From the NCBI GenBank assembly GCA_034231615.1, contig CM067312.1, forward strand, positions 9,431,885-9,495,884: DNA of 64,000 bases. The letters run 5' to 3'. The translations under genes and the position numbers were made by a program. Below are positions 26,481-49,788 of this stretch, one piece after another (positions within the stretch are counted from its first letter, which is position 1; each line of letters opens with the position of its first letter). The notes below the pieces were generated by a model that saw only the letters and a program-made list of their open reading frames with translations, was not told the origin of the DNA and made no database searches. The DNA is from Meghimatium bilineatum. Taxonomy: Eukaryota > Mollusca > Gastropoda > Stylommatophora > Philomycidae.

Positions 26481-26499
26481 TATTGCTGCCTTTTCGGGC

Positions 26500-27110: not shown

Positions 27111-27117
27111 CACCATA

Positions 27118-27970: not shown

Positions 27971-27975
27971 ATCAA

Positions 27976-29130: not shown

Positions 29131-29139
29131 GAAATACAC

Positions 29140-29345: not shown

Positions 29346-30118
29346 AATCTTCTATGGCTTTTAAACCCTTTGTTTAACATTTAACCATTTTAATGTTATA
29401 TATTCAGTTTTCAAGACCAACTATTTTCAAATGTAATTGGTTTCGTCTCCACTGTTATTTTCCAAGTCACAATCATATATTAGCACAGATATGAATTACG
29501 TTGAACTTAAACAGTAAGCGTTCAGAATTTTTACTTAACGTGTTTGATTTCCAGAGGTTTGTTATGTGGTTGAATGTGCCTGAAGGCAAAAACAATTCTT
29601 AATTACTTTATGCTGTAATGTTTCGTCCGTTTCATTCAGTTACCGATCTTCGTGTTTCATTTTTTTAATGATACATTTGTTGCGTCAGAAAATAGAAGTT
29701 CCCGATTTTAAAATTCGTACTTATATTTATCTATGTTTCTCTACAACCTTAATACGCCCTCAAGCATTATTTGTTTCGTTGTCTCTCCACTCTCATTTTA
29801 AAACTCATTAGTTCTAGTCTGTTAAACAAAAGTTTCATTTCCCGGGTCAGCAAGACTTTTATGATTTCAGGACGTGAAAACTACTCCGATCCAATATTTT
29901 CAACCGGACGTTTCATTTTATAAATAGTTTCTGTTCTTGCGCCTGATCAGCTTAACTATATATGCATCCAATGTCAGATTCGCGTTTTATTGCTTATAAA
30001 TAATAATTTTCGGGATGTGTCAACGAAAATGAGACAGGATAATAAATCTAGCACTGCAATTACTCATGCGGTTGCGTCTGTGGGTCTCACCAATGGCCCA
30101 CTAGACAACCCACCCATG
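29346..30118. other. No gene recognised
   Basis: AT-rich sequence with no identifiable coding or repeat content. Confidence 0.4.
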
Positions 30119-30119
30119 T

Positions 30120-30285
30120 AACAAAACCTTAGTAGATGACATGCCGTTACATTAAGGTTATAGTATATGACATGCTGTTATATTGAGAATATAGTAGATG
30201 ACATGCCGTTATATTGACGTTATAGTAGCTGACATGCCGTTATATTGAGGTTATAGTAGATGGCATGCCGTTATAGTGAGGTTAT
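30120..30285. repeat. 31 bp minisatellite
   Basis: About five units of TATAGTAGATGACATGCCGT plus TATATTGAGGT. Confidence 0.92.
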
Positions 30286-30429
30286 CTCTTCTTATAGAAG
30301 CTTCAATGCACGTCATCTAGACAATTATGCTTCTCATGCTTTTATTTTGTTGTTGCGCTGTTTTTATGCTTTGGTATTTTTATATATGTATGCACCCTCT
30401 GTAGTTGGGAGGTAGCCAGAGATGTACTG

Positions 30430-30730
30430 CGTAGCACTGGGGAGGAGGAAACTGACAGCACTATTTTTTCCTATGACTGAGACCCATCATAGAAGCCCAG
30501 TGACTCAGGACGTGACAATTCTTTTGACTTGAACATTTGGTTGCATTCCTGGAGCAATAGAGAAGTTTGACATAGCCAGTAGTCAATTGGTTGCGGAAAT
30601 GAGCACAGTGAACTCTATCTTGGCTGCAGTGGATCGGGGCAACGCACACCTTCCGGGTGGTGTGATAGTTGTTCTCTGGCTCTGGTCCTAGTTGGACCGA
30701 AAACCAACGACATGATCCCATGGACCTCTG
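30430..30730 (+). mobile_element. (CCAA)n-tailed retroelement, unclassified
   Basis: Ends in AACAACCAACCAACCAGC after ATGATCCCATGGACCTCTGG. The same end, reversed, is the 84 bp insertion at 47076-47159. Upstream sequence (GTGATAGTTGTTCTCTGGCT) has no recognised domain on either strand. Confidence 0.5.
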
Positions 30731-30919
30731 GACCAACAACCAACCAACCAGCATTGCAATAATCATTGTGTACTTCCGGTAATGACGTCCGTTGATAGGG
30801 GGTGTTTCTCTAATCAAGTCTGGGTCATTCCGTCGATCGTTGGATTAATCAACTAACATCGTAAAGTCCAGACCGATTTGTATAACAGAAGTCAGTTCAT
30901 TCCAATTCTTTTTTCATTC

Positions 30920-31235
30920 AAAAATCAGAGAAGAGACACATCAATATTTCATCACAGATGTTATCAGAAAACGCCGTTGGTCCTACATCGGGCATGTCCT
31001 ACGCGCAGACACCAACAGAATACACCACCAATCTCTTGAATGGATACCTACAGGCAAAAGAGCAAGGGGTAGACCAAAAGAAACACTCAGAAGAACAATA
31101 CTTAGAGAAAGTAAAACAACCAATATTCATACTATTCAAGAACTGCACAGAATAGCTTTGAACAGACAGAATTGGAGAGATCTGACCTCTGCGCTAACTT
31201 CAGCGCAAAAGGAAAATGAATGAATGAATGAATGT
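30920..31235 (+). mobile_element. LINE family 3, 3' end with (TGAA)n tail
   Basis: An open frame without its own Met runs from 30963 to the TGA at 31221-31223: IRKRRWSYIGHVLRADTNRI, then LEWIPTGKRARGRPKETLRR, then ELHRIALNRQNWRDLTSALT. This is the classic LINE ORF2 end (GHVLR, GRPK.T.RRT, NR..WR.L). The tail AATGAATGAATGAATGAATG follows at once. The copy is 5' truncated but its remaining coding end is intact. Confidence 0.88.
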
Positions 31236-31374
31236 CTGCATGCGGTGGGTATAAAGGTCGCAATGGTGACACACAAGACCAACAACTATCTAGCAGCGGA
31301 AACCCAAGCTGATGGCATGTCAACTATATAGTGAAACTTCACTCTTGTGAGAAATCTACTTCACCTATCTACGC

Positions 31375-31631
31375 AATTATGGTTCTCATATTCCTGCAGA
31401 TTAGCAGGATGTGCTCCGGAGAACGGTATGCGTTGTGTTAAGGTTTACATCTTAACTGCAATATCTGTCCCATTCGGTCTGACACATTCAGCTGCATGGT
31501 GGCTTCTGTGTCACTTTATCCCTATATGGGATTGAAATGTCATTTCAATCCCAAACCTCTTCAGTCGCATCTTACGACATGCATGGAAGGTAATCAGTAT
31601 TGGTATTATGTGCTACCCTTTCGGGCCCTTT
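31375..31631 (-). mobile_element. SINE family A
   Basis: Reversed copy: GTTCTCATATTCCTGCAGAT, TAGCAGGATGTGCTCCGGAG, CTGACACATTCAGCTGCATG, ACGACATGCATGGAAGGTAA and CTACCCTTTCGGGCCC. An 8-10 bp local duplication around CATTTCAATCCC is seen near 31530. No clear target-site duplication. Confidence 0.78.
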
Positions 31632-31739
31632 CAAGGAACGGACGCTACGTTTAGAAGATAAACTAAATTTATATAGATAAAGTGTGATTCTTGACAGTAC
31701 TATAAGACCTTTCAACAGAAAAATTAAACATGACCTGGG

Positions 31740-31890
31740 AGACCCATTTTGATTATGTCCGTGAATTTCGTTGGTCCGCCTTGGCTATCTTTGGCATGCG
31801 ACTCGAAGTATATAAATAGTGACCAACAGAAATCACGGCAATAATAAAAAAATGTAACAAATAAAGCTCAAACTAATTATGTTAAGAGGT
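31740..31890. repeat. Hairpin-type element, decayed copy
   Basis: Blocks TTCGTTGGTCCGCCTTGGCT, ATCTTTGGCATGCGACTCGA, AGTATATAAATAGTGACCAA and CAGAAATCACGGCAATAATA match 58830-58910. Confidence 0.6.
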
Positions 31891-32029
31891 CTTATATATA
31901 ATACAGTCGGTCATCGATAAAAAATTTTTTTAATCGGTAGCATACTTTCAAAGAACGTCAATGACCTATTATTTGGCATCGGCGGGGGGGGGGGTGCAAC
32001 GAAGAAAATTCTGTACTAAATGGGGGAAC

Positions 32030-32205
32030 GGAGGGAAATGTATACCAAAAGAGGTGAAGTAAAATATGTGTCAAAAGAGGGGCCATGAAGAAAAATACGT
32101 GCCAAAAGAGGGGGCGACGAAGAAAAATACGTGCTAAAAGAGGGGCAACGAAGAAAAATACGTGATAAAAGAAGGACCACGAAGAAAAATACTTGCTAAA
32201 AGAGG
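32030..32205. repeat. 31 bp minisatellite
   Basis: About five units of CCAAAAGAGGGGCGACGAAG plus AAAAATACGTG with drift. Confidence 0.85.
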
Positions 32206-32814
32206 TGTCACTGAAGGAACTTTGTCTTGGTCAAAAAAGGTACTACTGATGATAGGTTGTGCAGAAAGAAAGGCCACGAGTGAAAAAAGGGTGAGAACCA
32301 TTACACTACATAACTGATTTTAAACAGACATTTTTAGCAACCCTTTAGAAAAGAAGGGGACGAATGAAAAAAAAATTGAGAACCATTACACTACATAACT
32401 GATTTTAAGCAGAAATTTTTCTCCTCAGTCTAATGTAGATCGTGATTTCAGAAACTTTCTAAATAATCCTTTACCTACATAGGATTATTCTGTTTTTTTT
32501 AATCTTCTTACGTATTAGAAAATGTAGATATATTGTACTGGACATCTTTCTTTTCAAACTAAAAATATATATGACATCATTTCTGTGTTTCTGGAAACTC
32601 TGCGTTCTGTTTGGGTAAATGATTATATTGGTATTAGCTGTCAGTGATGTTTGTTCTGTGAATGAGTTTATGTTGTTATTTTGGGAGTTTAGGAGTTTTC
32701 ATTTGTTTGTTCCAAGTGTGGTTAGATTGTGCGGGGAATCAAGGGGGAGAAGGTGATTCTGGAGAATAAATAATTGAAATAAAAATGAGGGAAGGATGTG
32801 AGGATTAGATAATG

Positions 32815-33183
32815 TGTGAGTAGATGTTTGAGTAGATGTTTGAGTGAATCAGTGAATGATTGAGTAGATGTTTGAGTGAATCAGTGAATGATTGAGTAGA
32901 TGTTTGAGTGAATCAGTGAATGATTGAGTAGATGTTTGAGTGAATCAGTGAATGATTGAGTAGATGTTTGAGTGAATCAGTGAATGATTGAGTAGATGTT
33001 TGAGTGAATCAGTGAATGATTGAGTAGATGTTTGAGTGAATCAGTGAATGATTGAGTAGATGTTTGACTGAATCAGTGAATGATTGAGTAGATGTTTGAG
33101 TGAATCAGTGAATGATTGAGTAGATGTTTAAGTGAATCAGTGAATGATTGAGTAGATCTTTGAGTGAATCAGTGAATGAGTGT
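32815..33183. repeat. 32 bp minisatellite
   Basis: About eleven near-identical units of GATTGAGTAGATGTTTGAGT plus GAATCAGTGAAT. Confidence 0.96.
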
Positions 33184-33396
33184 ATTAGAGAGAAGAGCAT
33201 CTGCATAAAATGAGGGGAATATAGGTTAAAATATGAGTGAAGGAAATGAGGCAGTAAGAGTAGAGTGTGAATTTGTGTTGCGTGATGAAGTCAGTGTATG
33301 AGTGAGTGTTGAGTGAGTGTGTGTGAATGGTGAGTGTGGGTGATTGTTGAGTTAGTGTGTGAGTAAGTATTTGTTGTGTGAGTGTGTTGTGTGTTG

Positions 33397-33398
<2 letters not shown>

Positions 33399-33489
<91 letters not shown>
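33399..33489. repeat. (TG)n microsatellite
   Basis: About 45 TG units. Open frames across it (CVCVCV, HTHTHT) are artefacts. Confidence 0.98.
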
Positions 33490-33491
<2 letters not shown>

Positions 33492-33499
33492 CTCCGGTC

Positions 33500-33720
33500 C
33501 ACGAGTCACCAGTGACCACTTCATAAGCCTAGCAATCAGTAATTGCTCCATAACACATCAGTGACCGATCCAGAAGATTTCAGTGACCGTCCATAAGCCA
33601 TCAGCGAACGCTCCATAAGCCATCAGTGACCGATCCATAAGTTCTCATTGACCGTCCATAAGGCAACATCGACCGCTCCACAAGCTTCGGTGACCGCTCC
33701 ATAAGCCATCAGTTCAAATC
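33500..33720. repeat. Degenerate 21-25 bp minisatellite
   Basis: Units of CAGTGACCGCTCCATAAGCC type, about eight copies with variable length. Confidence 0.82.
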
Positions 33721-34724
33721 ATTATATACGTCATATAAGACCTTTGACCGCAGCGACCACACAAGTCCTTTGCACTTTGGTAAACAAAATGCAGGTCTGC
33801 AGCAACACAAATTTTGAGAAACGTTGAATTTGCAAGTTAGCGCAGTTAGCGCAAGTTAGCCTGCCCATAAATTATGTCAACAATGAAGAAAAATGTTGAC
33901 AGTTGTTGACAAGTGCACTTTTATATACAAATTAAATTGTTGAAATTAGAAACATATTTCTAATAATGTGAAACAAATCATGACATTTTTGGTTTGTTTA
34001 TTTTTTACTTATTCTGCTAATTTGGATTTTTTGGAGGAGGGGTTAATATTTTATTAAAGAGTCGGGTGAAATAATTTAACTTAATTATGTAGTGTGATCC
34101 CTGAATTCATCACAGTTGTTGACAAATTTGGTGAATATCAACAATTGGCAAAATAATTTTTACATACTTAATGAACTAAGAGGTAGTGGCCAGTATTGAC
34201 TATACAGGCACGTCGTAAAAGTAAAGACAGTAAAGACGTCCTTACAGAAATTAAATAATTTTTTAATTCGTAACATTTTTTTTTATTGTCGTCATTGTCG
34301 GTGGTCACTATTTATATACTTGGAGTTCCGTGCAAAAAAGTCAAGTCCGACCAACCAAATGTACGGAAATAGTCAAAAATTAACCTTTGAGGTCATGGTT
34401 ATTTTCTGTACACAAGTCTTTACTGAAACCTGGTCACGGTACAGACTTCAATTTACAACCCTTCCATTTGTAGTCGCTCCTTACACATGAAAAGAAAGAT
34501 TATGTTTAATACGGCGATGAAGATCTTACGTATCATCCCTACAATATTAAATGCTTTGAAAAGTTTTATTAAAACTTTGTCTTTCGTTACTACATGTTTT
34601 TCTATGAAGGAGTGCAGTGAGGCTTTCTGTAGTCTATGGAAATAAAGGCCGCTTTGCCATAACAGACGCCGCGACATGTACAGGAAGGATTTTGATTGTA
34701 CCTCCGAAAAAAAAAATCATGTCC
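33721..34724. other. No gene recognised
   Basis: Contains half of the hairpin element near 34299-34340 (GGTGGTCACTATTTATATAC, TTGGAGTTCCGTGC). A 74-codon minus frame near 34453-34677 has no recognisable domain. Confidence 0.4.
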
Positions 34725-35090
34725 CAACCGCAGATTGAACCGGGGACCTCAAGTGTCTGAGAACAGTATTCTTCTTCTTCTTCTTCTGCGTTCGTTCTCA
34801 AACTCCTGCAGATTAGCAGGATCCAGTCCGGAGAACGGAATGGGTTGTGTCATGGTTTACATCATTGCTGCGATATCTGCGCTTTTCAGCCTGATACATC
34901 CAGCATGACTTCAGCATGGCTTTGGGTCACTGACCCTATATGGGATGGGACAGCCAACTCCATCCCATAACCTCCTTAGTCACCTTTTACGACATGCGTG
35001 GAAGGTAAACAGTGTTGCTATTCTTTGCTCCCCTTTCGGGCCCGTAACACGGGCGAGAACAGCATTCTAACCGTAAGGCCACGCTTTCCA
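34725..35090 (-). mobile_element. tRNA-derived SINE head, split by SINE A
   Basis: With the insertion set aside, the minus strand has GTGGCCTTACGGTTAGAATG (A-box-like) and CCCCGGTTCAATCTG (B-box-like) at tRNA spacing. It is not an intact tRNA gene because no cloverleaf acceptor pairing was found. Confidence 0.6.
34772..35054 (-). mobile_element. SINE family A, full length with target-site duplication
   Basis: Flanked by GAGAACAGTATTC (34759-34771) and GAGAACAGCATTC (35055-35067). Reversed element TTCTTCTTCTTCTGCGTTCG ... TTGCTCCCCTTTCGGGCCCG, 283 bp. It is the cleanest copy in the window. Confidence 0.88.
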
Positions 35091-35988
35091 TGAAAAAGTG
35101 TGCAGCAGTCGAGGAAATTTGAAACAATATCTATCAATATTGCTGTATGATTTGGCTTTGTATTATTCCAAAATTTTCTCATTTCCGGAACTCAGAAAAC
35201 ATGTATCAAGTTGTCGTTAAATCAATTATCCGGAGTGAATTATTCAAAACCTGTCGCTAGACATGTATACAATAAACCAGCATTCACTAGGGACATGAGG
35301 CCATAAGCACTCAGCGGAAGGGTAATTCTCTGTTTGAATTCTAGCCCAGCATCTTAATCTTTTTGTGTCATTTTCGCGTGAAGTTTACATTCCGCGTAAA
35401 TTGGCCTCAATGACCTGGTATCTGTAAACAGGAAAATAATATACGGGCGTTATCGTGAATGGAAGGACGAGCGCCCTGCATATTAAGTAATGAATTAGAC
35501 GTTATTTAGATGTTTTCCATTTACGACGAGTTAGCTTTGCGAGCCATGAAAACGATAAGATTTGGTGTCAGTGAATCAAAGTAAACAAGATTTCGGGGGA
35601 AAGAGGTTTGGATAGAAAGCATATCGAATGCTGTTAATGGCAATTTATTTTTTTCTGTCTGCCGTTACCATGGATATCTTTATTGATTAGGAGTACAAAG
35701 TAAACTTTCTCTAAGTTAATTATTGTGAGAGGTAACTAGTAAATAGGTTACATTTTCTGATAATTAAGTATTTAGTGGAATAATTATTATAGAAATTCAT
35801 TTTTAACGGAATTTGCTGTTCACAGAATTAACCGCTACAGGAATTAACTATTCTGGGAAATAACTATTTTAGTGATTTAATTTATGTGAAGTAGCTATTG
35901 TATGAAGTACTTATTATGAGAAGTAAATGTTGCTTGAATTATATATTCTGGGAAGTAATTATTATCAGAAGTAATTATTCCGAGAAGT
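35091..35988. other. No gene recognised
   Basis: AT-rich; toward its right edge loose AGTAATTATT-type units foreshadow the next array. Confidence 0.4.
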
Positions 35989-36205
35989 AACTATTCTGGA
36001 AAATAACTATCATGCTATGCAACGTTTCCGAGAAGCGACTATTCCGAAAAGTAACTATTCCAAGAAGTAACTATTCCGAGAAGTAACTATTCCGAGAAGT
36101 AACTATTCCGAGAAGTAACTATTCCGAGAAGTAACTATTCCGAGAAGTAACTATTCGGAGAAGTAACTATTCCGACAAGTAACTATTCCGAGAAGTAACT
36201 ATTCT
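35989..36205. repeat. 16 bp minisatellite
   Basis: About thirteen units of GAGAAGTAACTATTCC. Confidence 0.95.
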
Positions 36206-36279
36206 GGAAAGTGAGAGATAAAACTCTAGTGTCGGAAACACAACCCGAAACTGGAAATGGGGGAAGGCCTTGGGTAACA

Positions 36280-36425
36280 CGCTGCAAATGTCAAAGTGAA
36301 CAGAAATAGGTATAACTGTTAACGAATATTAGTAAATAAAACAATTAAGCAACGAGACAGTGGCAGACGACGTTTCAACTAAAAGCCTTCATCAAGACAA
36401 AATACAACAACCAAAATAAAGAATG
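36280..36425 (-). mobile_element. Penelope-type end sequence, possible decayed hammerhead
   Basis: The minus strand of 36370-36397 reads TTGATGAAGGCTTTTAGTTG then AAACGTC, close to the CTGATGAAGGC..GCCGAAACGTC pattern of Penelope-like element ends, but with T at the conserved first C. Neighbouring sequence (GAACAGAAATAGGTATAACT, AATTAAGCAACGAGACAGTG) resembles 58366-58432. Confidence 0.4.
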
Positions 36426-36429
36426 AACT

Positions 36430-37370
36430 AAATGTGAAATTGCACATATGATAATGGTAGGAGGAAGAGCGAAAAGCGTGGTAAGAAACAGGTCGTGGGA
36501 AAGATAACATTTTAAGACTGGAGGAGTCCAGCAAAGAAGAAGACAAATATAGCATGACGAGAATAAGTGGTGGATGATATCGTGATGATATGAGTGAGTA
36601 AAATTAGCTAAACATTAACAATAGAAAATATGTATCGTCATAATATAGTCACTATAACGTAAAGTCATGAAAAGTAGAATGAAATGAAATAAAGTGTAAT
36701 GAAATTAGAGTAATATTTTTTTAAAATAAAATAAAATAACATAAAATAAAAAACAAAATAAAATTAGTTTAAATGAAATTAAGTAAAGTTAAAAAAAAAA
36801 AATTAAATAAAGTACTTTGAACTCTCCAGTCTTCATAATCTCCCGACCTTGCACGGGCTGATTATTTTCTTGTTCCCTCGACTGAAATCGGCACTGAAAG
36901 GACAGCGATTCAAGGATACAGAGACCTTATCAAGCAATGCGACAAGATCCCGAGAAAATGGATCAAAGAATGGAATCCACGAATGTTTTCATCAGCTGTA
37001 TGCACGTTGACAAAAGTTTGTAGTTGCCAAAGGGAACTACTTTGAAGGAAATGTAGTGCATGTATATTCTATTATTATTACTAATTTTTTTCTACCTAAG
37101 CCACTACTAATTACTGGAACTTCTTGAAGTTTCCTCGTAAATCTAAAGAATGACTTCAGTTGATACATGACACAGAGGATATAATAGAAATGGCATATTT
37201 TTGAAGTCGGAAAACTTGTTGACCATGTTGCGAGGTGAATCGGTGACAGTCAAGAGGACCTGGTTCAAATCCCTTCTGTTACCTTCTAATGTTATGAAGA
37301 TCAAGGATAGCCTATTCCACTGAGCAGATCTCATTGTGAGGATGATGGAATTTATCTAGTTATCTAGCTA
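36430..37370. other. No gene recognised
   Basis: Includes an A-rich AAAATAAAATAAAAT stretch near 36720-36810. No coding features were supported. Confidence 0.4.
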
Positions 37371-37379
37371 TCTGTACAC

Positions 37380-37880
37380 TGTAGTCCTTGTTTGCCTTGC
37401 GGCGTCAGGGGTAGAAGAGTTCTCTGGAGATGGCCTTCTTGTGTACTGTGTAAACTTGTTCCTGTGGCTTCTTTGATTTCTGTGATTCATCTTTTACATG
37501 GTCTACCTCGGGTAGCCGTTATGTCTATCTGTCATGGCCATCTGTGGCATGCTGTCTGTTGGTAGTCTGGAAGCGTGTGAAAACCACTTGATCTGTTGTC
37601 TTTTGATGTGTTCCAATACTGGTATTGTTTTGGTTATATGTCTGATGTTATAATTTCTAATTCTATCTCTTAATGACACTCCGAGTATTCTTCGTAGACA
37701 TATCATTTCTGTTGTCACTATTTTTCTTTTGTCGTGTGCCGTCATTGTCCAGGTTTGGCACTGGTAGCACAGTGGTGGGATAATAATAGTCTTGTTTAAT
37801 GCAACTTTAGTGTTTATATTTAAATTTTGGTTTTTGAAGAAATTTTTGTCATCTGTCCTAGGATCTGGTATGTTTTGTAA
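37380..37880 (-). mobile_element. LINE family 1, diverged copy
   Basis: Minus strand: NINTKVALNKTIIIPP, LCYQCQTWTMTAHDKRKI, EMICLRRILGVSLRDRIRN, KRQQIKWFSHASRLPTDSM. The order and motifs follow the family 1 copies at 3514 and 17747 (LCYQCQTWTLDS, RRMIGVSLRDK, KQQVKWYGHI) but with clear divergence, so this is an older or distinct subfamily. The RT palm is absent. Confidence 0.85.
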
Positions 37881-38141
37881 AGGAATTAATGTAATTAATA
37901 AGAGGCTGAAATTTGAGCGGTGATTACTCGCATTTTTTACCAAATGAGGTAATATAACCCTGATCCATATTGACATGTAAACATATTACAAACAAGCTAT
38001 ACATGAGAATTATAATATTCTATATCTATTCTATATTATTGTATGGCTCAGTAACATGGACAATAAACAAACAACTAGAAGACAGAATTGATGCCTTTAA
38101 GATGGGGATATGTAGAAGAAATACAGTATTAGAACGGGAGC

Positions 38142-38400
38142 ACTAGCGGCGGAAGAGACCAGACAAGAAACTGCAAGACAGAAGCGGGCACGTAGAAAAG
38201 AAAAAAACATCTCAACCTCACATAGATACCTTCTATTGTTGTCAATTCTGTAAAAGAACATTTTGTGCGCGCATTGGACTTGTTAGTCATTTAAAAACGT
38301 ACTATTAACTTTTAATAGTTGTTTATTATTTATTGTTATTATTATTATGGTTGAGTTTTTGGGTCATCATCTATTACGACGGACGAACATCATCATCATA
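38142..38400 (+). mobile_element. LINE 3' end with C2H2-like finger
   Basis: Reads KKTSQPHIDTFYCCQFCKRT then FCARIGLVSHLKTYY and stop at about 38305-38307. A C..C...(F)..RIGL.SH motif is common at the C-terminus of some LINE ORF2 proteins. The 3' region runs on to CATCATCATCAT at 38389-38400. Imperfect AGAAATAC / AGAATAC duplications at the two ends suggest insertion into the family 2 LINE. Confidence 0.65.
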
Positions 38401-38551
38401 TAGAATACTATGGAGAACTTCGTGGAAAGCGAAGAAAAAAAAGAGGTTCTAATAACACTTAATATGAAGAAAGAATTATTAGAGAAAATAAAGATCTGAC
38501 AAATAAAATATTTTGGACATTAAAAGACATGTCACCTTCTTGAAGACCTTA

Positions 38552-38980
38552 GTTAGTCAGTTAGTCGTCGGATCATCGTCACTGCAAACTGGACACATCC
38601 ATAGTTGCTCCGATCTCTCCTTGAGTGTATCCGCCATCACACTTCTGCTGACAGTACCGGTCCTATGCTGTTTGACCATCATTCTTCTGCGCCCTCCAAA
38701 ATGTTCACCTCTAGCAACACCGCCTTTCAATCCCTGATCTTTAATCCTAGCCATTGAAAAGGAATCATCATCCACATTAGTCTCACTCTCGCGTGTTATA
38801 TCTCTTAAGGAGTTCGCAACGTCAGCGCGATCCATTGCCCCATCGCCCTGTGTCACAATCGCGCACGATGCCAGTTGATCGCTCTTTATTGCCTCGAACG
38901 CCCACATGTCCCGGCACGAAAATAAATGTAACCACTTTCAAGCTCGCCTTTCTCAAGGCCTCAATCCACTGTTCATGAAC
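38552..38980 (-). mobile_element. (TAAC)n-tailed retroelement, unclassified
   Basis: Inserted in a LINE with GAAGACCTTA on both sides (38542-38551 and 38981-38990). The minus strand is open for 116 codons: MWAFEAIKSDQLASCAIVTQ, then NSLRDITRESETNVDDDS, FSMARIKDQGLKGGVARGEH, FGGRRRMMVKQHRTGTVSRS, VMADTLKERSEQLWMCPVCS, DDDPTTN, followed by a short imperfect TAAC tail. The 53216 copy keeps the same final 60 residues. CPVC and the basic GGRRRM stretch are the only visible motifs. It could be the C-terminus of an unrecognised non-LTR element. Confidence 0.75.
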
Positions 38981-39129
38981 GAAGACCTTACTTCTTTGAG
39001 AGTAACATCACGAGATGGACAGGTTACAGTCTAACAGAGTGCACCACCAATACGAGATACAGGGAATGCTGGAGGTCTGTTGCAGCTAATCGTCTTTGCG
39101 GAGACGGCATTTAATGATCATGAACCCTG

Positions 39130-39690
39130 ATCCGGACAAGTTAACCATCAGATGCACTAGTAAAACAGTATTTTAAATAGCCATCTCCCAGTTGCTAAAG
39201 TGACTATCGACCAGATTACAATGTTGACACGAAGCCCTGGGGGCCACAGTGCCTATCATCAACCGTCACATGAAGCCCGCATAAATAAGAACGATTTTGA
39301 GTTCGTTGAATTGTGAATTTCTTTTTTATTGCCAGGATGCAAATCGTGTATTGATCACAACACACTGATTGTTGCCTGGACAAAAGCCTCCGCAATGACA
39401 GATCTAAGTAATACTCACAGAAACCTGGTCAATGATCCGGAAATCAGTGTTTTTGTTCTCCACTTTATATAAAAGTCCGAGCGATTTTCGAGTCGACCGA
39501 TTTAGAATTAGTGGCCGGGGTTGCCGTTTCTAGAGATTCCTTTCACGCTTCAGACAAAGCTCTTTTTTTACAGAGCCAATTTGAAGGTGTATCGGTGCAA
39601 TGTATTGTTTTGTATCAATTGTTAAAGTTTTGATATTTACACACTTTGCGGCGCCCAAACAGACAACAAATCATGTATCTCAGCAGCTAT
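39130..39690. other. No gene recognised
   Basis: No domain or repeat identified. Confidence 0.4.
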
Positions 39691-39699
39691 TGTTTCGTC

Positions 39700-40165
39700 A
39701 ATGTTAGACAATTTGCCAATCTACATTTAATGTCTATAGTCAGAGAATCAAATAGAATCAACATAACGATACATGATCAATTAATAAAACAAGTGCTGGA
39801 ATTTAAATATCTTAGATGCATTTTTACATCGACAGAAGAATAGATAGAGAGAGGGAGACAAGAATTCAAAAACACAAACGATGCAAATTATGAACTTACA
39901 CCAATTGTCAAACACGCATCTATCCTGATGTAAACCAAAATCATAACTTTAACTCTCATAGCAACATTGTATTATTACTGTCAGATGTGGACGCTAATTA
40001 AATAACAAGAGAGAAAGCTTATTTCATGTCTAAGAAAAGCAGCAAACAGAACAAGAAGAGATCATGTGAGGAATGAAGTGGTTGCAAGAACTATTGGAAC
40101 AACATGTGTGCTCATATAGATTGAAAAACAGAGACTGAAATGATTAGGTCACTTAATGTGTATGA
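39700..40165 (+). mobile_element. LINE fragment, diverged, family 1-like
   Basis: NRINITIHDQLIKQVLEFKY, then an ELTPIVKHAS segment, then LYYYCQMWTL, LRKAANRTRRDHVRN and KQRLKLGHLM-like residues. The order follows family 1 (NINIQINNKQLKQVDEFKYL; LCYQCQTWTL; RRMIGVSLRDKISN) with decay. Confidence 0.65.
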
Positions 40166-40604
40166 ACCCATATATGGTTTTCTAATAAATCATAACATGA
40201 TTTTCTAATAAATCATAACATGATTTTCTAGTACTAGAAAGTTAACCAAAAGTCTGGTATTCCCCCCCTCCCCCCAGCTCTTTAACAATTTTCCCAAACT
40301 TTTGAAGTGTATCTTTATTTAGGTAAATCTATCCTCCTTGCTGTTACTGAATACATTTCTGCGACCCTGGACATGTTACCAACAAATATGAGGAGATGTA
40401 AAAGTTCCAGGAGTTTGTTTGTTGATTAAATAAAAAATACATCATATGCTGAGGTAAGCCTCTGTCAACCGCGGAAATTAGTTAAATTTGTACCAAGAGG
40501 AACACAAAACCCCTATACATATATAAGTATTAGAAGAAATACCCGGCGTTGCCCGAACAAGAATATTTTTTTTAATGAATAAATGTGAATATTGGAGGAA
40601 AACA

Positions 40605-40682
40605 TTCAGTCCTTACCGGGGATCGAACACTAAACTTCACTAGTGTGAGACAACGCTCTAATCTCTCGGCCATGCGCCATAC
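40605..40682 (-). mobile_element. tRNA-like SINE head
   Basis: Minus strand GCGCATGGCCGAGAGATTAG, AGCGTTGTCTCACAC and GTGTTCGATCCCCGG hold A-box and B-box matches with a long variable region as in Leu/Ser-type tRNAs. The acceptor stem does not pair, so it is not a working tRNA. Confidence 0.5.
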
Positions 40683-40689
40683 AAATAGG

Positions 40690-41385
40690 GGAATTTCATC
40701 CAATAAGACAAGGAGTCCGACAAGCGTGTGTGCTATCACCTGATCTGTTTAACTTATACAGTGAAATGATTTTTAGATCTATAGAAAATATGCCAGGAAT
40801 AGCTGTTGATGGGTATAATGTGAATAACCTGAGATATGCTGACGACACGATTCTGGTAGCAGAGAATGAAAAAGAACTACAATAATTTATTACAACTATA
40901 GTAGAAGAAAGCGCAAACAAAGATCTCAGCTGGAACACCAAGAAAACATAGCTAATGGTTATATCTAAAACATCTAACCCTTCTTAACATCAAGGTCAAC
41001 GGGACAATTCTCAAACAAGTAGTCAAATTTAAATTTTTGGGCACAATTATTACTTCAGATGGTAGATGCGTCACTTAAATTTTTTAAAAGGTCGAACAGC
41101 ACAGGCAAAAGCAGCATTCCAGAAGATAAGGAACATCTTGTGTAATAATTCATTATCAATAGAAGTAAGAAAGAACATACTAAAATGTTACATAGAGCCC
41201 ATACTGTTATATGGTAGTGAAGCATGGACAATTCACAATATTGCAAGAAAACGTCTGGAGGCCACAGAGATGTGGTTTTATAGAAGAATGTTGATAATAT
41301 CATGGACAGCTAAAAGACATGGATCAGAGCAAAGCAATGATGCGTACCCTGACATCAGTCACGGATATCAGAGCCAATGAACACC
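40690..41385 (+). mobile_element. LINE RT fragment with YADD box
   Basis: PIRQGVRQACVLSPDLFNLY, then IAVDGYNVNNLRYADDTILV (catalytic YADD), AENEKELQ, then after a frame change FLKGRTAQAKAAFQKIRNIL, KNILKCYIEPILLYGSEAWT and EMWFYRRMLIISWTAK. Related to family 2 and to 628-1070 (WFIRRMLRIPWTTK). It ends near 41385 without a clear tail. Confidence 0.88.
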
Positions 41386-41514
41386 AGCTTGCATATGTTG
41401 AATAAGTGCAACTCGCTATTAAGAATACATCTGATGGCGCTCCTGGCCCGAATAGAATCCGGCACCGTTTTTTGTGTATATTGCAAAACACTGCGTCATA
41501 TTTCTCTTCATCTA

Positions 41515-41665
41515 TACAATAGTTATAATGTTCATCTGTTATACTCTTATTCTGTTATAATCTTCATCTGTTATACTCTTATTCTGTTATAATCTTCATC
41601 TGTTATACTCTTATTCTGTTATAATCTTCATCTGTTATACTCTTATTCTGTTATAATCTTAAGTT
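41515..41665. repeat. 32 bp minisatellite
   Basis: Four units of TTATAATCTTCATCTGTTAT plus ACTCTTATTCTG. Confidence 0.93.
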
Positions 41666-41775
41666 TTTATTCAGTATATTAAAACAGTATTATTACCTTT
41701 ACTATATTTTTTATTTTAGTATAACTTTACTGTTACACTGTGTCTGTTAATTAGTATTAAAATAGTAGATGTAAT

Positions 41776-41945
41776 AGTAGTAGTAGTAGTAGCAGTAGTA
41801 GTAGTAGTAGTAGCAGTAGTAGTAGTAGTAGTCGTAGTAGCAGCCGTAGTAATAGTAATAATAGTAAAAGTAATAATAATAACAATAATATTTGTTCTTG
41901 CAGCAGTAATATAAAATAGTAATAATAGTAATAATAATAATAATT
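41776..41945. repeat. (TAG)n and (TAA)n microsatellites
   Basis: TAG runs with CAG interruptions, then TAA runs. Confidence 0.95.
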
Positions 41946-41967
41946 GCACTTGTAACAATAACAGTAA

Positions 41968-42065
41968 CAGTTTGGTTTTAGTTTGGTTTTAGTTTGGTTT
42001 TAGGTTGGTTTTAGTTTGGTTTTAGTTTGGTTTTAGTTTGGTTTTAGTTTGGTTTTAGTTTGATG
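41968..42065. repeat. 11 bp tandem repeat
   Basis: About nine units of GGTTTTAGTTT. Confidence 0.95.
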
Positions 42066-42319
42066 AATTAACTGACACACACTTAGTTTCGGCGTTGACG
42101 CGCTCTCCCATCTTGTCAAGAACTGACAAGAATTCAGAAACCCTGTGATTAATTATGTCAATAAAAATGCATCTCCTCACTTCCCACTCTTGACTTCACA
42201 GAAAAAAAGGACAATGAAAACACATGTTTCACATTTTTGGAAACAGATTTCACATTCAAAGAATTTAGTTGGTGTATAAAACAAACGGAATCAAACATAA
42301 AATCGTGCTAAGGCACAAG

Positions 42320-43055
42320 ATATGTTCAATCGACTTTGTCATATTTCAGAACAAATTGGCCTTCAAGTCAACACTTCCACGACTAAGATTATGAATTTTA
42401 CTAACTGTAATTTTAAAATCACTCTCAGCGGAGACACAATTCAAACGGTTGATAACTTTTATATTTTAGCAGCAAAATAACAAGATGGAAATACAATCAA
42501 ATAGACTTCTGCCAGAATTGCGTTGGCATCAAGTGCGTGCAACCATCTAACAAACATCTGGAATTCAAAAACAATAAGTGAATATACCAAACTACAACTG
42601 TTCAACTTCAATGTTATATTCGCAGTAATATATGGTTGCGAAAGTTGGAAAATAGCAAAAGCACTGGAGAAGAAACTAAATTCATATGAAAATAAATGTC
42701 ATAGAAAACTCTTAAATATTGGTTTGGGAAGAATTCAAGTCAAACAAGCAGTTGAGAGAAGACAGCAAACAACAATATGCTTCTACAACAATAAGAAGGA
42801 AACGATAGTCATATATTGGACATGAACTTAGAATAAATGAAAACAGACTGCCACTACAAGCATTAAAATGGGTACCAGATGGCAGAATAAAATTATGGAA
42901 GCCAATATACGCTCTTCGCTGTACAACCATCACGGAGGTTGTGGACTATGGATTTCAACAACATACAAGAATTGTACACAGTAGCATCACATCGCTCGAA
43001 CTGGAGAGTTCTGGTTTCTGCCTCATGCGCGGTATTCGGCGCTGAAGGAACATAG
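42320..43055 (+). mobile_element. LINE fragment
   Basis: Reads MFNRLCHISEQIGLQVNTST-like sequence early, then LTNIWNSKTISEYTKLQLFN, FNVIFAVIYGCESWKIAKAL (the YG.ESW block of the RT C-terminal region) and KCHRKLLNIGLG. A tail-end segment near 42990-43040 gives ASHRSNWRVLVSASCAVFG, like the A.DR..WR..V...C end of LINE ORF2. Diverged and frame-broken. Confidence 0.75.
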
Positions 43056-43254
43056 ATTAAAAAAACGGATTACTGACGTCAACTTTTGACAACCCCCCCC
43101 CCCCCCCAATTCTCTCCCTCTTGTCAACAACTGTCAAATATTTTCTGATTTCCTCCCCTAATTGTTCACAGGGATGTATTGACAGCCCCTAAGGTGGTTT
43201 GGGGGATGGGATTCGCCGTTCCATTAGATGTCAAAAGTGATCTAAATTCCATGT

Positions 43255-43385
43255 AAAACTTTGATGTATCAGACACACCGGCGCAGATATCGCTGCCAAG
43301 CTATAAACTACAGACATCACAATCCGTTCTCCTAACTACATCCTGCTAATCTGCAGGAGTTTGAGAACCAGCGAACAAGAAACAA
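43255..43385 (+). mobile_element. SINE family A, 3' half
   Basis: Forward: GCGCAGATATCGCTGCCAAG, AACTACATCCTGCTAATCTG, CAGGAGTTTGAGAACCAGCG, then an AACAAGAAACAAAAAA tail. Confidence 0.8.
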
Positions 43386-43465
43386 AAAATTGCGCTAATA
43401 GTCTTCTTTGTTTTTCTTTATTTGTCAATCACTGCCACTTCCGGCAACCCATCTCTCTATTTTTA

Positions 43466-43501
<36 letters not shown>

Positions 43502-43503
43502 CT
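43466..43503. repeat. (TC)n microsatellite
   Basis: About 18 CT units. Confidence 0.97.
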
Positions 43504-44040
43504 TCCGGTGCCATTTTGGTAAAATCTTGTTTTCTTGTCAACACTGTGAGGCTTCATTTTTCTCAATTTTTTTACTATATAATTTGTCTTGTCTTTCCCA
43601 ATGTTGATGTATTTTTCCTCCATTTTCCTGTGTGTGCTTAGCTTCAAGTTTTGCATTCTTGTGTTTAATTTACATGTCTCTTTTCCATTTTGTTTTCATT
43701 TTTGAAATGTCACTTTTTCATCTTTTTTTTCTTCTTATAATTCTTGTCCTCTTCAATATTTTTTTTTCTTATAATTATTTGCTGTGTTCCTATATTGTGT
43801 TTTACACTTTATGTTTGTTTTAATATTTATATCTTGTTTCTTATTTTATCTTTAGTTTTGAATTTATGTTTTTCATTTCACAATTATGCGAGGTAGAAGC
43901 GTATTCGTGATTGGTTATGGTAGCAAATTTTATATTTGCAGTCCGGCAAAGCGAATATGGTTTGTTCAAGGAATACAAATCTAGTGATAACAAAACCGTG
44001 GGATTTTTAGGGGTTTTTTGGTTGGGGGTCCAACTTCCAA
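43504..44040. other. T-rich stretch, no gene recognised
   Basis: Pyrimidine-rich plus strand with many TTTT runs; short frames through it have no domain. Confidence 0.4.
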
Positions 44041-44044
44041 TGAA

Positions 44045-44145
44045 CCCCTCTTATAGCAGGACAATGGTTCTACTAGATTTCCAGCAGGATGTAGTCTAGA
44101 GAACGGAAGTGCGTTGTGTCGCCGTTTTATGGTTGCAACCATATC
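44045..44145 (-). mobile_element. SINE family B, partial
   Basis: CTTATAGCAGGACAATGGTT, CTACTAGATTTCCAGCAGGA, TGTAGTCTAGAGAACGGAAG and TGCGTTGTGTCGCCG. Confidence 0.75.
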
Positions 44146-44454
44146 GCTAGTAGAGTAGGTCGACAGTACGAAAGAACCGGGTCTCATACTTACACGCTGG
44201 TCACCAAGCTCAAATCTAACCACGGTCACGCAGGCTAGATATATTTGCCGTTGTCCTTGTCGCTATCCACATAGCCAGACACGCTCACAATACCGTGTTT
44301 AAAGCAGATTTTTTAAGTTCTATCGAAAGGTGCAGATATCGCAGCCACACTTCCAACTCTAATTCAACATCAGGGCCGTATATACGTTTTCCCTAGATCG
44401 CAGGAGCGAGGGCTTATATCATGATGTGACATATTATTTCCAGAACGTGATCTT

Positions 44455-44605
44455 CCTTGTGGATTCTCTGCCGGAGCTAGAGACATAAACAATCTGATAT
44501 ATCACTGCAATATTGTCGTCTTTGGAGCGCTCTTCCCCTGCTACCCTTAACTCTGCCTTCAGTTATTATTCTTTCCATGCTGTTGTCTCTTTATATGACA
44601 TAGGG
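44455..44605. repeat. Unclassified interspersed repeat (partner at 4506)
   Basis: Shares GGAGCTAGAGACATAAACAA, TCTGATATATCACTGCAATA, CTTCCCCTGCTACCCTTAAC and TTTCCATGCTGTTGTCTCTT with 4506-4670 in the same order. Confidence 0.6.
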
Positions 44606-44739
44606 TTTATATGAAATATAAAATTTAAAAAAAAGATAATTCCCTTGTTTTCGTGCGATTTTTAATGACCTTTAGGGGGGGGGTAGGAGGGAAGAGAGGT
44701 GGCATATATCCTGCCTCTTGCGGTTTGCTTCCTATCACT

Positions 44740-44950
44740 TCTTCTTCTGTGTTGGTTCTCAACGCCCAATAGAAGCAGGTCGTCAACATGAGAACAACTT
44801 CGTTGAGATATCTGCGCCTCATACCCGAGACATCCTACTTCTTCATGACTTCTGTGCCACTGTAACTCTTTGAGGAATGGGTCAGGCAACCTCACTCTCA
44901 CAATCCTCCTTATTCGCCCTTTACGACATTTATGGCAGGTCACTATTCAT
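44740..44950 (-). mobile_element. SINE family A, decayed copy
   Basis: TTCTTCTTCTGTGTTGGTTC, TGAGATATCTGCGCCTCATA, CCGAGACATCCTACTTCTTC, CCTTATTCGCCCTTTACGAC. The middle is diverged. Confidence 0.65.
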
Positions 44951-45314
44951 CGATCCACTTTTATGGCCCATCAACACACTGGACGTAAACAACATACAAA
45001 GTAAACCGAAATTTTCTAACATTTGTATACTTCGTGACTACAAAAAAAAGCTTTCAAAGATACAAATAGAATCAATTCAGCGTTGATAAGATGAGGTGCC
45101 GGTAAAACAAGACGGTATGTCTGTCTATAGAGGAGCTCACAAACACAATTATAACCATTCGCTACCACTACAATCTGATTATTATCCCACTATTATCTTG
45201 TGTGTTATAACTCCTTATCATTACAGAACTAAAAGCTTTAGAAACAGTTTGGTCAAGGTCATGATCATTTTACGAGATAAATATTTTTTTCTTTTGTGAA
45301 GTCATGCTATCTAT

Positions 45315-45605
45315 TTGTGCACCGTGATACCGTGCTAGGTGATACCGTGCTAGGTGATACCGTGCTAGGTGATACCGTGCTATGTGATACCGTGCTAGGT
45401 GATACCGTGCTATGTGATACCGTGCTATGTGATACCGTGCTATGTGATACCGTGCTATGTGATACCGTGCTAGGTCATACCGTCCTACGTGATGCCGTGC
45501 TATGTGATACCGTGCTATGTGATACCGTGCTAGGTGATACAGTGCTATGTGATACCGTGCTAGGTCATACCATCCTACGTGATACCGTGCTATGTGATAA
45601 CATGA
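45315..45605. repeat. 15 bp minisatellite, open on both strands
   Basis: About 19 units of GATACCGTGCTAGGT / GATACCGTGCTATGT. Five codons per unit and no stop on either strand give a 127-codon plus frame (GDTVL) and a 144-codon minus frame (ARYHI). Neither has gene features. Confidence 0.95.
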
Positions 45606-45714
45606 TTGCTGGTGCGCCTCTTGTCCTTGTATTTCCGGCATTAGAACCTGTGCTTTCGTGCCCTGCTCGATATAGATGATGGGCCTACTAATCGTAGTTA
45701 ACAACCTCAGTTGG

Positions 45715-46335
45715 CTAGTCCTATCTCCACTTCAAGGAATTAGCTTAGGTTAAGGCACAAAATAGATCATTACGTCCCATCTACACTTCAAGGAATTAGC
45801 CTACGTGAGGACACAAGATAGATAATTAAGTCACATCTCCACTTCAAGGAATTATCCTAGGTGAAGGCACAAAATAGATAATTAAGTCCCATCTCTACTT
45901 CAAGGAATTAGCTTACGTGAGAACACAAGATAGATAATTAAGTCACATCTCCACTTCAAGGAATTAGCCTAGGTGAAGGCACAAAATAGATAATTAAGTC
46001 CCATCTCCACTTCAAGGAATTAGCCTAGATGAAGGCACAAAATAGATAATTAAGTCCCATCTCCACTTCAAGGAATTAGCCTAGGTGAAGGCACAAAATA
46101 GATAATTAAGTCCCATCTCCACTTCAAGGAATTAGCCTAGGTGAAGGCACAAAATAGATAATTAAGTCCCATCTCCACTTCAAGGAATTAGCCTAGGTGA
46201 AGGCACAAAATAGATAATTAAGTCACATCTCCACTTCAAGGAATTAGCCTAGGTGAATGCACAAAATAGATAATTAAGTCCCATCTCCACTTCAAGGAAT
46301 TAGCTTAGGTGAGGGCACAAGATAGATAATTTGTA
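45715..46335. repeat. 56 bp minisatellite
   Basis: About eleven units with TCCACTTCAAGGAATTAGCC, TAGGTGAAGGCACAAAATAG and ATAATTAAGTCCCATC. Confidence 0.96.
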
Positions 46336-46344
46336 GAATCGTTG

Positions 46345-46740
46345 TGTATCATCACCATCAGGTCTGGTCTCTACATTGCAGGTTGACTACAACGGACACA
46401 GAACATCTTCTTCACTTTCCTTGGTTGTGCACTCTGATAGACTGTATCATGTCCATCTCATATCCCCCTCCCACGTGTTTCTTTCTCTCCGTCCCTCCAC
46501 TCTACGTTCAAATAAGGTCTTCAACAAAGTTTCATGTCTAAAGTATTTAATTTGGTGGGATTTTTCTGTTAATAGTTCTTTTTTCATATGAAGTGTTGAC
46601 AAAACATTTTTGTTTTCTTGTATTTCCATGAAGTTCTCCCTACGCTTTTCCATCTCAAATGCATCAATTATGTCTTGTAGCTGTTTGATCATTATCCATG
46701 TTTCTGAGGCATATATTAATATATAATAGGTCAAGAAATT
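46345..46740 (-). mobile_element. LINE family 2, 3' end
   Basis: Minus strand: YYILIYASETWIMIKQLQDI, IDAFEMEKRRENF, STLHMKKELLTE, IKYFRHETLLKTLFERRVEG and RRERNTWEGDMRWT. The order matches family 2 (LYGSEAWTLTN; GHIKRHDNLLKTLLEG). Confidence 0.8.
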
Positions 46741-46869
46741 TATAATTATATTTTTTTTTCCATTGCAATTCCATCTTTTTCTTCGATTTTTTCATAACAT
46801 ACTTTGCAGAAAATATTTAGAGGGAGTGGGGACCGTTTCATTCACCATTTGTCTTAATGCTTTTAGTAC

Positions 46870-47455
46870 TGAAAGTCATGTGTACTGAACGACATGGTGT
46901 TTTAGTTCACATGTTGCAACAAACACTGTGTTTTAGTTCACATTTTTCATGAAACACAGTGTTTTAGTTCACATGTTGCAACAAACACAGTGTTTTAGTT
47001 CACATGTTGCAACAAACACTGTGTTTTAGTTCACATGTTGCAACATACACGGTGTTTTAGTTCACATGTTTCATGGTTGGTTGGTTGCTAATCCAGCGGT
47101 CCATGGACTCATGTCTTTTGACCTAATGCCATTAAATGGCATTATATTGCTGGGAAGTAACATGTTTCATGAAACATAGTCTTTTAGTTCACATGTTTCA
47201 TGAAACACGGTGTTTTAGTTCACATTTTTCATGAGACACAGTGTTTTAGTTCACATTTTTCATGAAACACGGTCGTTTAGTTCACATTTTTCATGAGACA
47301 TGGTGTTTTAGTTCACATGTTTCATGAAACACGGTGTTTTAGTTCACATTTTTCATGAGACACGGTGTTTTAGTTCACATGTTGCAACAAACACTGTGTT
47401 TTTAGTTTATATGTCTCATGAAATACGGTGTTTTAGTTCACATATTTCCACAAAC
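46870..47455. repeat. 31 bp minisatellite just before enterin exon 2
   Basis: About seventeen units of GGTGTTTTAGTTCACATGTT plus TCATGAAACAC, with GCAACAAACAC variants. It ends about 60 bp before the exon 2 acceptor and is interrupted by a small insertion at 47076-47159. Confidence 0.95.
47076..47159 (-). mobile_element. (CCAA)n-tailed element, 84 bp copy
   Basis: GTTGGTTGGTTGCTAATCCA, GCGGTCCATGGACTCATGTC and ATTAAATGGCATTATATTGC. ACATGTTTCATG flanks it on both sides (47064-47075, 47160-47171), but this string is also part of the array unit, so the duplication is likely rather than proven. Matches the end at 30680-30730 in reverse. Confidence 0.65.
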
Positions 47456-47515
47456 AAACACATAAATAAACCCACAGTAAAGATGTAACCGTATTTATTT
47501 ATTCTTTCCATACAG

Positions 47516-49614
47516 GTAACAATAAAGAAAGCATCAATTATCTGAAAGAGCGACTAAAACGAAACACGTTTAGGAATGGTTTCACAGACAAGAACAAAGA
47601 TGAATATGTCAATCTACAGACCAACAACCAAGACATGTTTCCTTATTCAGACCATAGCGAATCACCTTACAGACTTGGGTTTGTTAGCAAGTCATCTGGG
47701 GACAATTACAATACATTATCAAATCTGATATCAGAACTAGAATCACAGAACTTACAACGTGACACAATAGAGGCCCCTTCAAATTTTGAGTATTTGTTAA
47801 ACTCTATTAAGAAACGAGATCCGGAGATTGATACAGATGACCGGTCGGATTTAGATGACCTCAGGAATTTTGATAATGAAGATGATATAGATGTTGTTAG
47901 ACGAAGGGTGCCACAGTTCGCTCACAGCTTTATAGGAAAACGGCGGCATCAAAACACAAATAATGGCAGCCTGTTGAAAAGAATGCCAGCGCAGTTGTTT
48001 GTCAGAAGAGCCCCGCATTATTCTCATAGTTTTGTTGGGAAAAGATCTGTAAGGCAACAAGATTTTAACTCTAAGAACATTCACGGCGACTTGTCTGATA
48101 AAACATTTGATTACCCTGATATTTTTCAAGGCAAGGAACCTACTTTCGTACTTCCTTCTCATGCTGGGTTTCAGGAGAATGGCAACTTCATATCAGACCC
48201 ACATTCTCAGTACAACGAGAAGTCACCGGTTCATAATGTGGTAAAGAGGTCTACTGATGAGGATAAAAGAGGTCCGACCTTTGGTCATAGTTTTGTAGGA
48301 AAGAGAGGACCACGATTTGGTCATAGTTTTGTAGGAAAGAGAGGACCGCGATTTGGTCATAGTTTCGTGGGGAAAAGGCTCAGTTTTGGTCATAGTTTCG
48401 TGGGGAAACGTGAAGATGACAGCGAGGAAGATTTTGAAACTAATGTGATTAATGATGATGATGAAGGTGACATGAGTAGAGTTTTGTCTCTAGAGGAATA
48501 TCCAGAACAGACTGACTTTGACAGTGACCATGATTCCTCTGAGGAAAGTGTGGAGATTGCAGATAAAAGGCAACAGCGATATAATTACAATCCTTCAAAT
48601 TTTTTGGGAAAACGCCCAAGTTTTAGTCATAGTTTTGTTGGTAAAAGAGGTCCAAGATTTGGTCATAATTTTGTAGGAAAACGGCCAAGCTTTGGTCATA
48701 GTTTTGTAGGTAAAAGAGGTCCAAGTTTTGGGCATAGCTTTGTTGGGAAGAGAGGTCCAAGATTTGGTCATAGTTTTGTTGGAAAGAGAGGCCCAGCTTT
48801 TGGTCATAGTTTTGTTGGAAAGCGTCCAAGCTTTGGTCATAGTTTTGTGGGTAAGAGAGGTCCAAGTTTTGGTCATAATTTTGTTGGGAAACGTCCAGGA
48901 TTTAGCCATAGCTTTGTAGGAAAGCGTGATGGAAGCTTTGATAATATTCTTTCAGAGAAACAAAGAACAAGCATTGCAGACTTTATGGCGACTGAAAATG
49001 ATGTTGAAGACTTTAGCAGAAATGCGGTCCCAGTTGAGTTGCAGAAAAACAGCAGTGACTCAACATCACTGAAGGATTTTTTTGAGCAAGGAAATTCTGA
49101 GACTGATCTGAACACATCACCAGACGCTAGTGACTCCGAAGACGATAAAAGAGTACCAGCTTTTGGGCATAGTTTTGTAGGTAAAAGGGCTCCCGGATTT
49201 GGGCATAATTTTGTAGGCAAAAGGGCTCCAGGATTTGGGCATAATTTTGTAGGCAAAAGGGCTCCCGGATTTGGGCATAATTTTGTAGGCAAAAGGGCTC
49301 CAGGATTTGGACATAATTTTGTAGGCAAAAGGGCTCCAGGGTTTGGACACAGTTTTGTCGGGAAAAGAGCTCCAGGGTTTGGCCACAACTTTGTTGGTAA
49401 AAGAGTTCCGGGGTTTGGACATAGTTTTGTAGGTAAACGTGAGAATGATTTGTATGATATTGATAACATTTCATCAGAAGAAGTATTAGCATCTGAAAAT
49501 ATGGAAGATCTAGTAAACCATGTCAGTGAAGAACAGTTTAAACAATATCAAGAAGGCAACAGTATATCCGATATCAACAGCAACAAAATAGGCGTATTTT
49601 ATTCTGATAATTAA
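47516..49614 (+). CDS. Enterin precursor, exon 2: neuropeptide repeats
   Basis: Encodes the prohormone cut into enterins, amidated peptides ending in HSFV-amide known from Aplysia gut and nervous system, where they inhibit gut movement. The exon starts after TTCTTTCCATACAG and is open from 47516 to the TAA at 49612-49614; an in-frame stop at 47467 lies before the acceptor. Order: NNKESINYLKERLKR, an acidic spacer, two single peptides (VPQFAHSFIGKR at 47908, APHYSHSFVGKR at 48010), a group of four (48271-48411), an acidic spacer, QQRYNYNPSNFLGKR (48571), a group of nine (48616-48927), a spacer, a group of eight (49153-49440), and an acidic tail. That makes 23 enterin-type copies, each followed by GKR (amidation Gly plus dibasic cleavage site). 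Seven copies end HNFV rather than HSFV. The spacers are rich in D, E and S. With exon 1 the product is 723 residues. Identity is certain at family level; orthology to Aplysia enterin is inferred. Confidence 0.95.
48271..48411 (+). repeat. Enterin coding repeats, group of four
   Basis: GPTFGHSFVGKR, two GPRFGHSFVGKR and LSFGHSFVGKR. Units are 36 bp, the last 33 bp. Confidence 0.97.
48616..48927 (+). repeat. Enterin coding repeats, group of nine
   Basis: Mix of 36 bp units (GPRFGHNFV, GPSFGHSFV, GPRFGHSFV, GPAFGHSFV, GPSFGHNFV) and 33 bp units (PSFSHSFV, PSFGHSFV twice, PGFSHSFV), each plus GKR. Confidence 0.97.
49153..49440 (+). repeat. Enterin coding repeats, group of eight
   Basis: Eight exact 36 bp units: VPAFGHSFV, four APGFGHNFV, APGFGHSFV, APGFGHNFV, VPGFGHSFV. 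The four consecutive HNFV units alternate CCC and CCA proline codons, a sign of a recent 72 bp duplication. Confidence 0.97.
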
Positions 49615-49782
49615 TGTTGCAATGTTATTTTGTTGCATGATTTCAGTTCTTGAAACTTGAATCAACCTTCACGACAACATTGTTATGTTTGCGTGAAAAC
49701 TGACAATGCAAAAGTTACAATTTGCATTGCTTTAAAAATATTATTTAGCAACTTATTAGCAACAACAAAAGCATGATTAAAG

Positions 49783-49788
49783 AATAAA
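49783..49788 (+). terminator. Enterin polyadenylation signal
   Basis: AATAAA about 170 nt after the stop codon, in AT-rich sequence with T-rich stretches after it. The 3' untranslated region would be about 190-200 nt. Confidence 0.7.

Follow-up and report, generated by a model that had tools for sequence, protein, structure and literature searches.

Enterins have been described as nona- and decapeptides of the Aplysia gut and central nervous system (CNS), most of which end in HSFVamide (PMC4603347). According to the accounts of the Aplysia precursor, it has a length of 837 aa (PMC8735849) and contains 35 enterins (PMC2575521), and enterin is present in the radula mechanoafferent neurons (PMC3493602). 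Among other gastropods, enterins have been detected by mass spectrometry in Biomphalaria (PMC5455113), broad enterin expression has been described in Charonia (PMC8270824), and Reishia is credited with two enterin-related precursors, TERP-1 and TERP-2 (PMC10036341). Two surveys describe enterin as a gastropod family (PMC6425005, PMC6778792), and the account of two oysters lists it as not found (PMC4200219). A scallop record bears the name enterin, but the similarity quoted in it concerns YxPF repeats (PMC6522055); given this case, enterin labels vary between records. A paper on Theba (PMC4408573) contained none of the terms sought in it, and another (PMC9396074) names enterin in its reference list alone.

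In this study, we analysed a 64,000-nucleotide stretch of DNA (the window; C15:9431885-9495884 in a 1.61-Gb assembly of 32 contigs) that very probably carries a functional enterin prohormone gene, the family being set by motifs and published descriptions, with the Aplysia precursor compared by description and not by alignment (features are collected in Table 1). Like the Aplysia precursor (UniProt Q95P23) as it has been described, the predicted product combines many amidated peptides, mostly ending in HSFV, in one precursor; there are 23 enterins in a predicted 723 aa here versus 35 in 837 aa in Aplysia. Nonapeptides prevail (18 of 23), a length that belongs to the published definition of the family. 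The other five copies are predicted octapeptides, no decapeptide is predicted, and seven copies end in HNFV; neither octapeptides nor HNFV endings are named in that definition as quoted. The enterin-type genes of other gastropods (Biomphalaria, Haliotis enterin-1, Charonia, Reishia TERP-1/-2) have the family name in common with this one, and it is by name that they are compared. The window gene is an ordinary, well-preserved addition to the known enterin family, and it records the family in a genome without annotation, together with a candidate structure, namely a separate signal-peptide exon and a 28.9-kb intron.

Table 1. Features of the enterin locus, in window coordinates
Feature	Position	Strand	Basis or remark
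Candidate first coding exon, with a 5' leader, its start codon (ATG) at 18546 and a phase-1 donor, GTAAGA, at 18619	18491..18618	+	
Predicted phase-1 intron of 28,897 bp, containing minisatellites and pieces of transposons	18619..47515	+	Placed from the two exon ends
Main coding exon, enterin precursor	47516..49614	+	Open frame; 698 aa follow the split Gly codon; stop codon at 49612-49614
Unit 1, VPQFAHSFI-amide, first lone N-terminal copy	47908..47934	+	Aligns with N-terminal module of the paralogue
MPAQLFV, with KR before and RR after it; not amidated for lack of a Gly	47983..48003	+	Same place is IPLELIS in the paralogue
Unit 2, APHYSHSFV-amide	48010..48036	+	VPHYSHSFI in the paralogue
Block 1, four enterins: GPTFGHSFV, GPRFGHSFV (two), LSFGHSFV	48271..48402	+	In-silico cutting
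Acidic linker, 51 aa, net charge -22	48412..48564	+	In-silico cutting
Diverged 24th unit, predicted QQRYNYNPSNFL-amide, dodecapeptide	48571..48606	+	GKR site, in-silico cutting
Block 2, nine enterins; four are octapeptides starting with Pro directly after KR	48616..48918	+	
Acidic linker, 73 aa, net charge -14	48928..49146	+	In-silico cutting
Block 3, eight enterins, five identical (APGFGHNFV)	49153..49431	+	In-silico cutting
Acidic C-terminal tail, 57 aa, net charge -12	49441..49611	+	In-silico cutting
Possible polyadenylation signals, ATTAAA (49776) and AATAAA (49783)	49776..49788	+	Consensus match only

An open-frame scan of the window found 714 codons open at 47470-49611 on the forward strand. 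Fifty 64-kb sequences drawn from a first-order Markov model had longest open reading frames averaging 140 aa, with a maximum of 183, and the runner-up frame in the real window, of 292 aa, crosses a tandem array (6989-7864). The splice acceptor ending at 47515 does well on a simple score: 18 of the window's 3639 AGs score higher, and 30, counting the acceptor itself, score the same. It leaves a split Gly codon in phase 1; this good acceptor upholds the exon bounds given in the preliminary description. The exon contains 24 GKR sites in frame, 23 of which are preceded by H(S/N)F(V/I). The earlier count of 23 copies before GKR, 22 with H(S/N)FV and one with HSFI, was reproduced on recounting, with 15 HSFV, seven HNFV and one HSFI. 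A 24th unit that the preliminary description had not mentioned, YNYNPSNFL-GKR, is diverged. The grouped layout with acidic spacers was likewise borne out: two lone N-terminal units precede blocks of four, nine and eight, with linkers between them, and four acidic linkers have net charges of -11, -22, -14 and -12, those of -22 and -14 standing between the blocks. Cutting in silico at runs of basic residues (K/R) predicts 24 amidated products, 17 of them distinct, and the locus thereby supplies 16 distinct predicted enterin peptides in addition to the diverged unit. A Pfam search returned no family for either this precursor or that of a diverged paralogue on contig C22, and the prokaryote and viral collections yielded 38 and 3 pattern matches, respectively, with no confirmed relatives.

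Silent sites of the repeat units vary, whereas the encoded residues change little (pS 0.75 versus pN 0.064 over nine codons in 23 units), a pattern which indicates that the exon is under selection and excludes a chance origin. The other two forward frames of the unit DNA run into stops, so that no ratio is computable there. Among the 21 units of the three blocks, the two lone units being left out, units differed at 4.31 of 27 positions within a block versus 5.26 between blocks, a difference as extreme in 11 of 5000 shuffles. As expected, this closer likeness within blocks fits local duplication of units.

The main exon has no signal peptide, a point absent from the preliminary description, and its frame is therefore not the whole gene. 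We searched the 47.5 kb upstream for an ATG followed by a hydrophobic core and a phase-1 donor. The top match of this signal-peptide-plus-donor scan in the needed phase was 18546-18618, which encodes the signal peptide MMIVYLRPQWYVAIVLLAYLSSVQ and the first base of the split Gly codon. Of 60 second-order Markov sequences, two matched its score, and the window has a higher-scoring candidate at 12125 in the wrong phase. The donor at 18619 is near-consensus, and only two of the window's 4037 GTs score better; among the 3639 AGs, 53 score better than the acceptor ending at 18490. The candidate exon has no other copy within the window, and it lies in a stretch between the end of a LINE and a SINE-like repeat. 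We consider it likely from these signals that 18546-18618 represents the first exon of the enterin gene, 28.9 kb upstream of the main exon, in which case the two joined exons would encode the predicted precursor of 723 residues.

On this structure, the separately encoded signal peptide would route the precursor into the secretory pathway, where, as in established prohormone biology, prohormone convertases would cleave it at KR and RR sites. Once a carboxypeptidase had trimmed off the basic residues, the glycine left at the end would serve C-terminal amidation. The output would be 23 enterins and one diverged peptide. Having many copies would multiply the dose of a single message, with the acidic linkers acting as processing spacers, and the released enterins would presumably act, through a receptor, on gut and feeding circuits. 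Convertase cleavage before Pro is often poor, and four peptides of block 2 (PSFSHSFV, PSFGHSFV twice and PGFSHSFV) begin with Pro right after KR; were these four sites left uncut, fused peptides of about 19 residues would be released in place of octapeptides. We regard this outcome as unlikely: the amidated PRQFVamide of Aplysia starts with Pro (PMC2762978), mass spectrometry has detected PMNMLRLamide in Biomphalaria (PMC5455113), and Pro starts most units of the C22 paralogue.

A search of the genome found two further copies of the main exon, the diverged one on C22 and a near-identical one on C15. The latter lies at C15:9527355, on the same strand and 47,953 bp downstream of the window copy. 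Because both exon copies sit on one assembled contig in the same orientation, they could represent a real and recent tandem duplication, with two enterin-1 genes side by side, and this was our first idea. It was dropped given what surrounds the copies. A gap of 100 Ns (C15:9495885-9495984) starts one base past the window end (64000), and the sequence after it is collinear with window 13467-64000, in pieces that share about 92-98% identity in the main run. Such a repetition of the sequence before a gap is the signature of an uncollapsed haplotype, and not all gaps of the assembly show it, since the sequences flanking a gap on C22 do not overlap. We therefore read the second C15 copy, on the overlap of contig ends across the gap, as very probably the other allele, left uncollapsed where the contig ends of two haplotypes meet; an actual tandem duplication is improbable. 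Between the two copies, 3 of 2172 coding bases differ, one silently and two with a change of amino acid. Across four chosen non-coding segments, 181 of 13,508 aligned bases differ, which gives an odds ratio of 0.10 for the coding sequence (p = 9e-9); taken alone, the 3' flank differs at 20 of 2961 bases (p = 0.005 versus the coding sequence). A working gene agrees with both the allelic and the duplication reading.

The comparison of alleles extends to the candidate first exon, whose coding bases (18546-18618) are identical in the other allele, a weak indication by itself given 73 bases and low allelic divergence. The surroundings of this exon differ, as the other allele lacks the LINE and SINE-like insertions on either side of it. 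The LINE piece is a 3' fragment at about 17747-18453, separated by about 40 bp from the candidate exon downstream of it; with an apparent target-site repeat, acctctgttatc, on both ends, it reads as a polymorphic insertion. The SINE-like copy that adjoins the exon (18723-18800) belongs to a short element present in many copies on both strands, among them those at 9370, 34776, 43381 and 54018.

The identity of the peptides bears on both the family and the host. In support of the enterin reading of the preliminary description, 15 of the 23 copies carry the published HSFVamide hallmark, the Aplysia precursor again entering by description only. The Aplysia peptides AMRP/MIP and PRQFVamide are similar in that they have an FVamide C-terminus and belong to gut and CNS, but, as they are described, other residues precede their FV and they have no His. 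A merely convergent resemblance to enterin, in a gene that is really a member of a different FVamide family of molluscs (PRQFVamide, fulicin-like, or Mytilus inhibitory peptide/AMRP), is highly improbable. Although the FVamide end is common to these families and three act on the Aplysia gut (PMC2762978), none of the 23 copies has the PxFVamide core of Mytilus inhibitory peptide (PMC4200219), the PRQFVamide ending (PMC2762978) or the fulicin-like LRNFVamide ending (PMC5455113), seven of them ending in HNFV instead, and all 23 have H(S/N)F, with a His three residues before the terminal V or I that is absent from the rival endings as described. With the gene taken as enterin, the molluscan host proposed in the preliminary description can be narrowed by the published distribution of the family to a probable gastropod, since the two surveys place enterin among gastropod families and it was reported as not found in the two oysters.

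The diverged copy, C22:50023594-50025875 on the reverse strand, is an exon of 760 residues. Like the window gene, it has a phase-1 acceptor (TACAG|GT), an N-terminal module and GKR-spaced repeats. BLASTP of the two exons gave E = 2e-79, a value inflated by the repeats, and both genes share a non-repeat module, HxFS(Y/F)IGKR...LLKR(M/I)P..L..RR(A/V)PHYSHSF(V/I)GKRS. By these features of its sequence, the C22 gene is a true paralogue of the window enterin gene. The MPAQLFV slot within the module is conserved in the paralogue as IPLELIS, although it is not an enterin. Repeat units of the paralogue again vary mainly at silent sites (pS 0.64, pN 0.11), and the 17 canonical ones end mostly in HKFI (seven) or HKFV (four), versus HSFV and HNFV in the window gene, with HRFV (two), HSFV (two), HSFI (one) and HTFV (one) making up the rest. 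The H-x-F-V ending is gone from several others (SYFDDSFS, SYVDDILA, LYFDNSFA, PSLNNSHA and SDLENKFA), mostly acidic units that keep the repeat rhythm. No convincing signal-peptide exon was found for the paralogue among nine candidates, in 49 kb and then 149 kb upstream; a hit resembling the enterin-1 signal peptide was rejected for want of a start codon.

It is possible, although we would lean against it, that the C22 gene constitutes a second enterin channel, in which a duplicated pair has shifted the endings of one member from HSFV to a positive HKFI/HKFV-amide with a different receptor preference, some of its copies turning into spacers, and the window gene has retained HSFV and HNFV. If true, duplication would have split one peptide signal into two channels that differ in the receptors they prefer. 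The strings HKFV and HKFI had no match in a text search of the open-access literature, which is not proof that they are unpublished. With the paralogue, a single genome offers two genes in which to study how a neuropeptide gene with many peptide copies divides its message once duplicated. Reishia, too, is described with two enterin-related precursors (PMC10036341), and it would be a guess that TERP-1 and TERP-2 correspond to the two genes seen here.

The genome search as a whole reported 110 matches, with 64 of 1048 first-look candidates scored; of the matches, four lay within the C22 gene and two on C15. Ten other matched places were fetched, and the one or two longest open frames at each proved to be simple tandem repeats and not GKR precursors, so that these weaker matches looked like translated minisatellites. 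The enterin-type genes found in the genome are thus the window gene and its C22 paralogue, at least two in number. Elsewhere in the window, a search of 20 other frames against Pfam gave one match above the cut-off, a reverse transcriptase fragment at 3522-4325 on the forward strand (RVT_1, E 5.4e-20), and the window contained no tRNA and no Rfam match. Minisatellites are very dense in it, amounting to 101 tandem-repeat rows, with arrays such as 15570-16478 (18 copies of a 50-bp unit) and 6990-7773 (20 copies of a 39-bp unit), and several of them translate as long open frames that mimic peptide precursors, which makes them a trap for searches of this genome.
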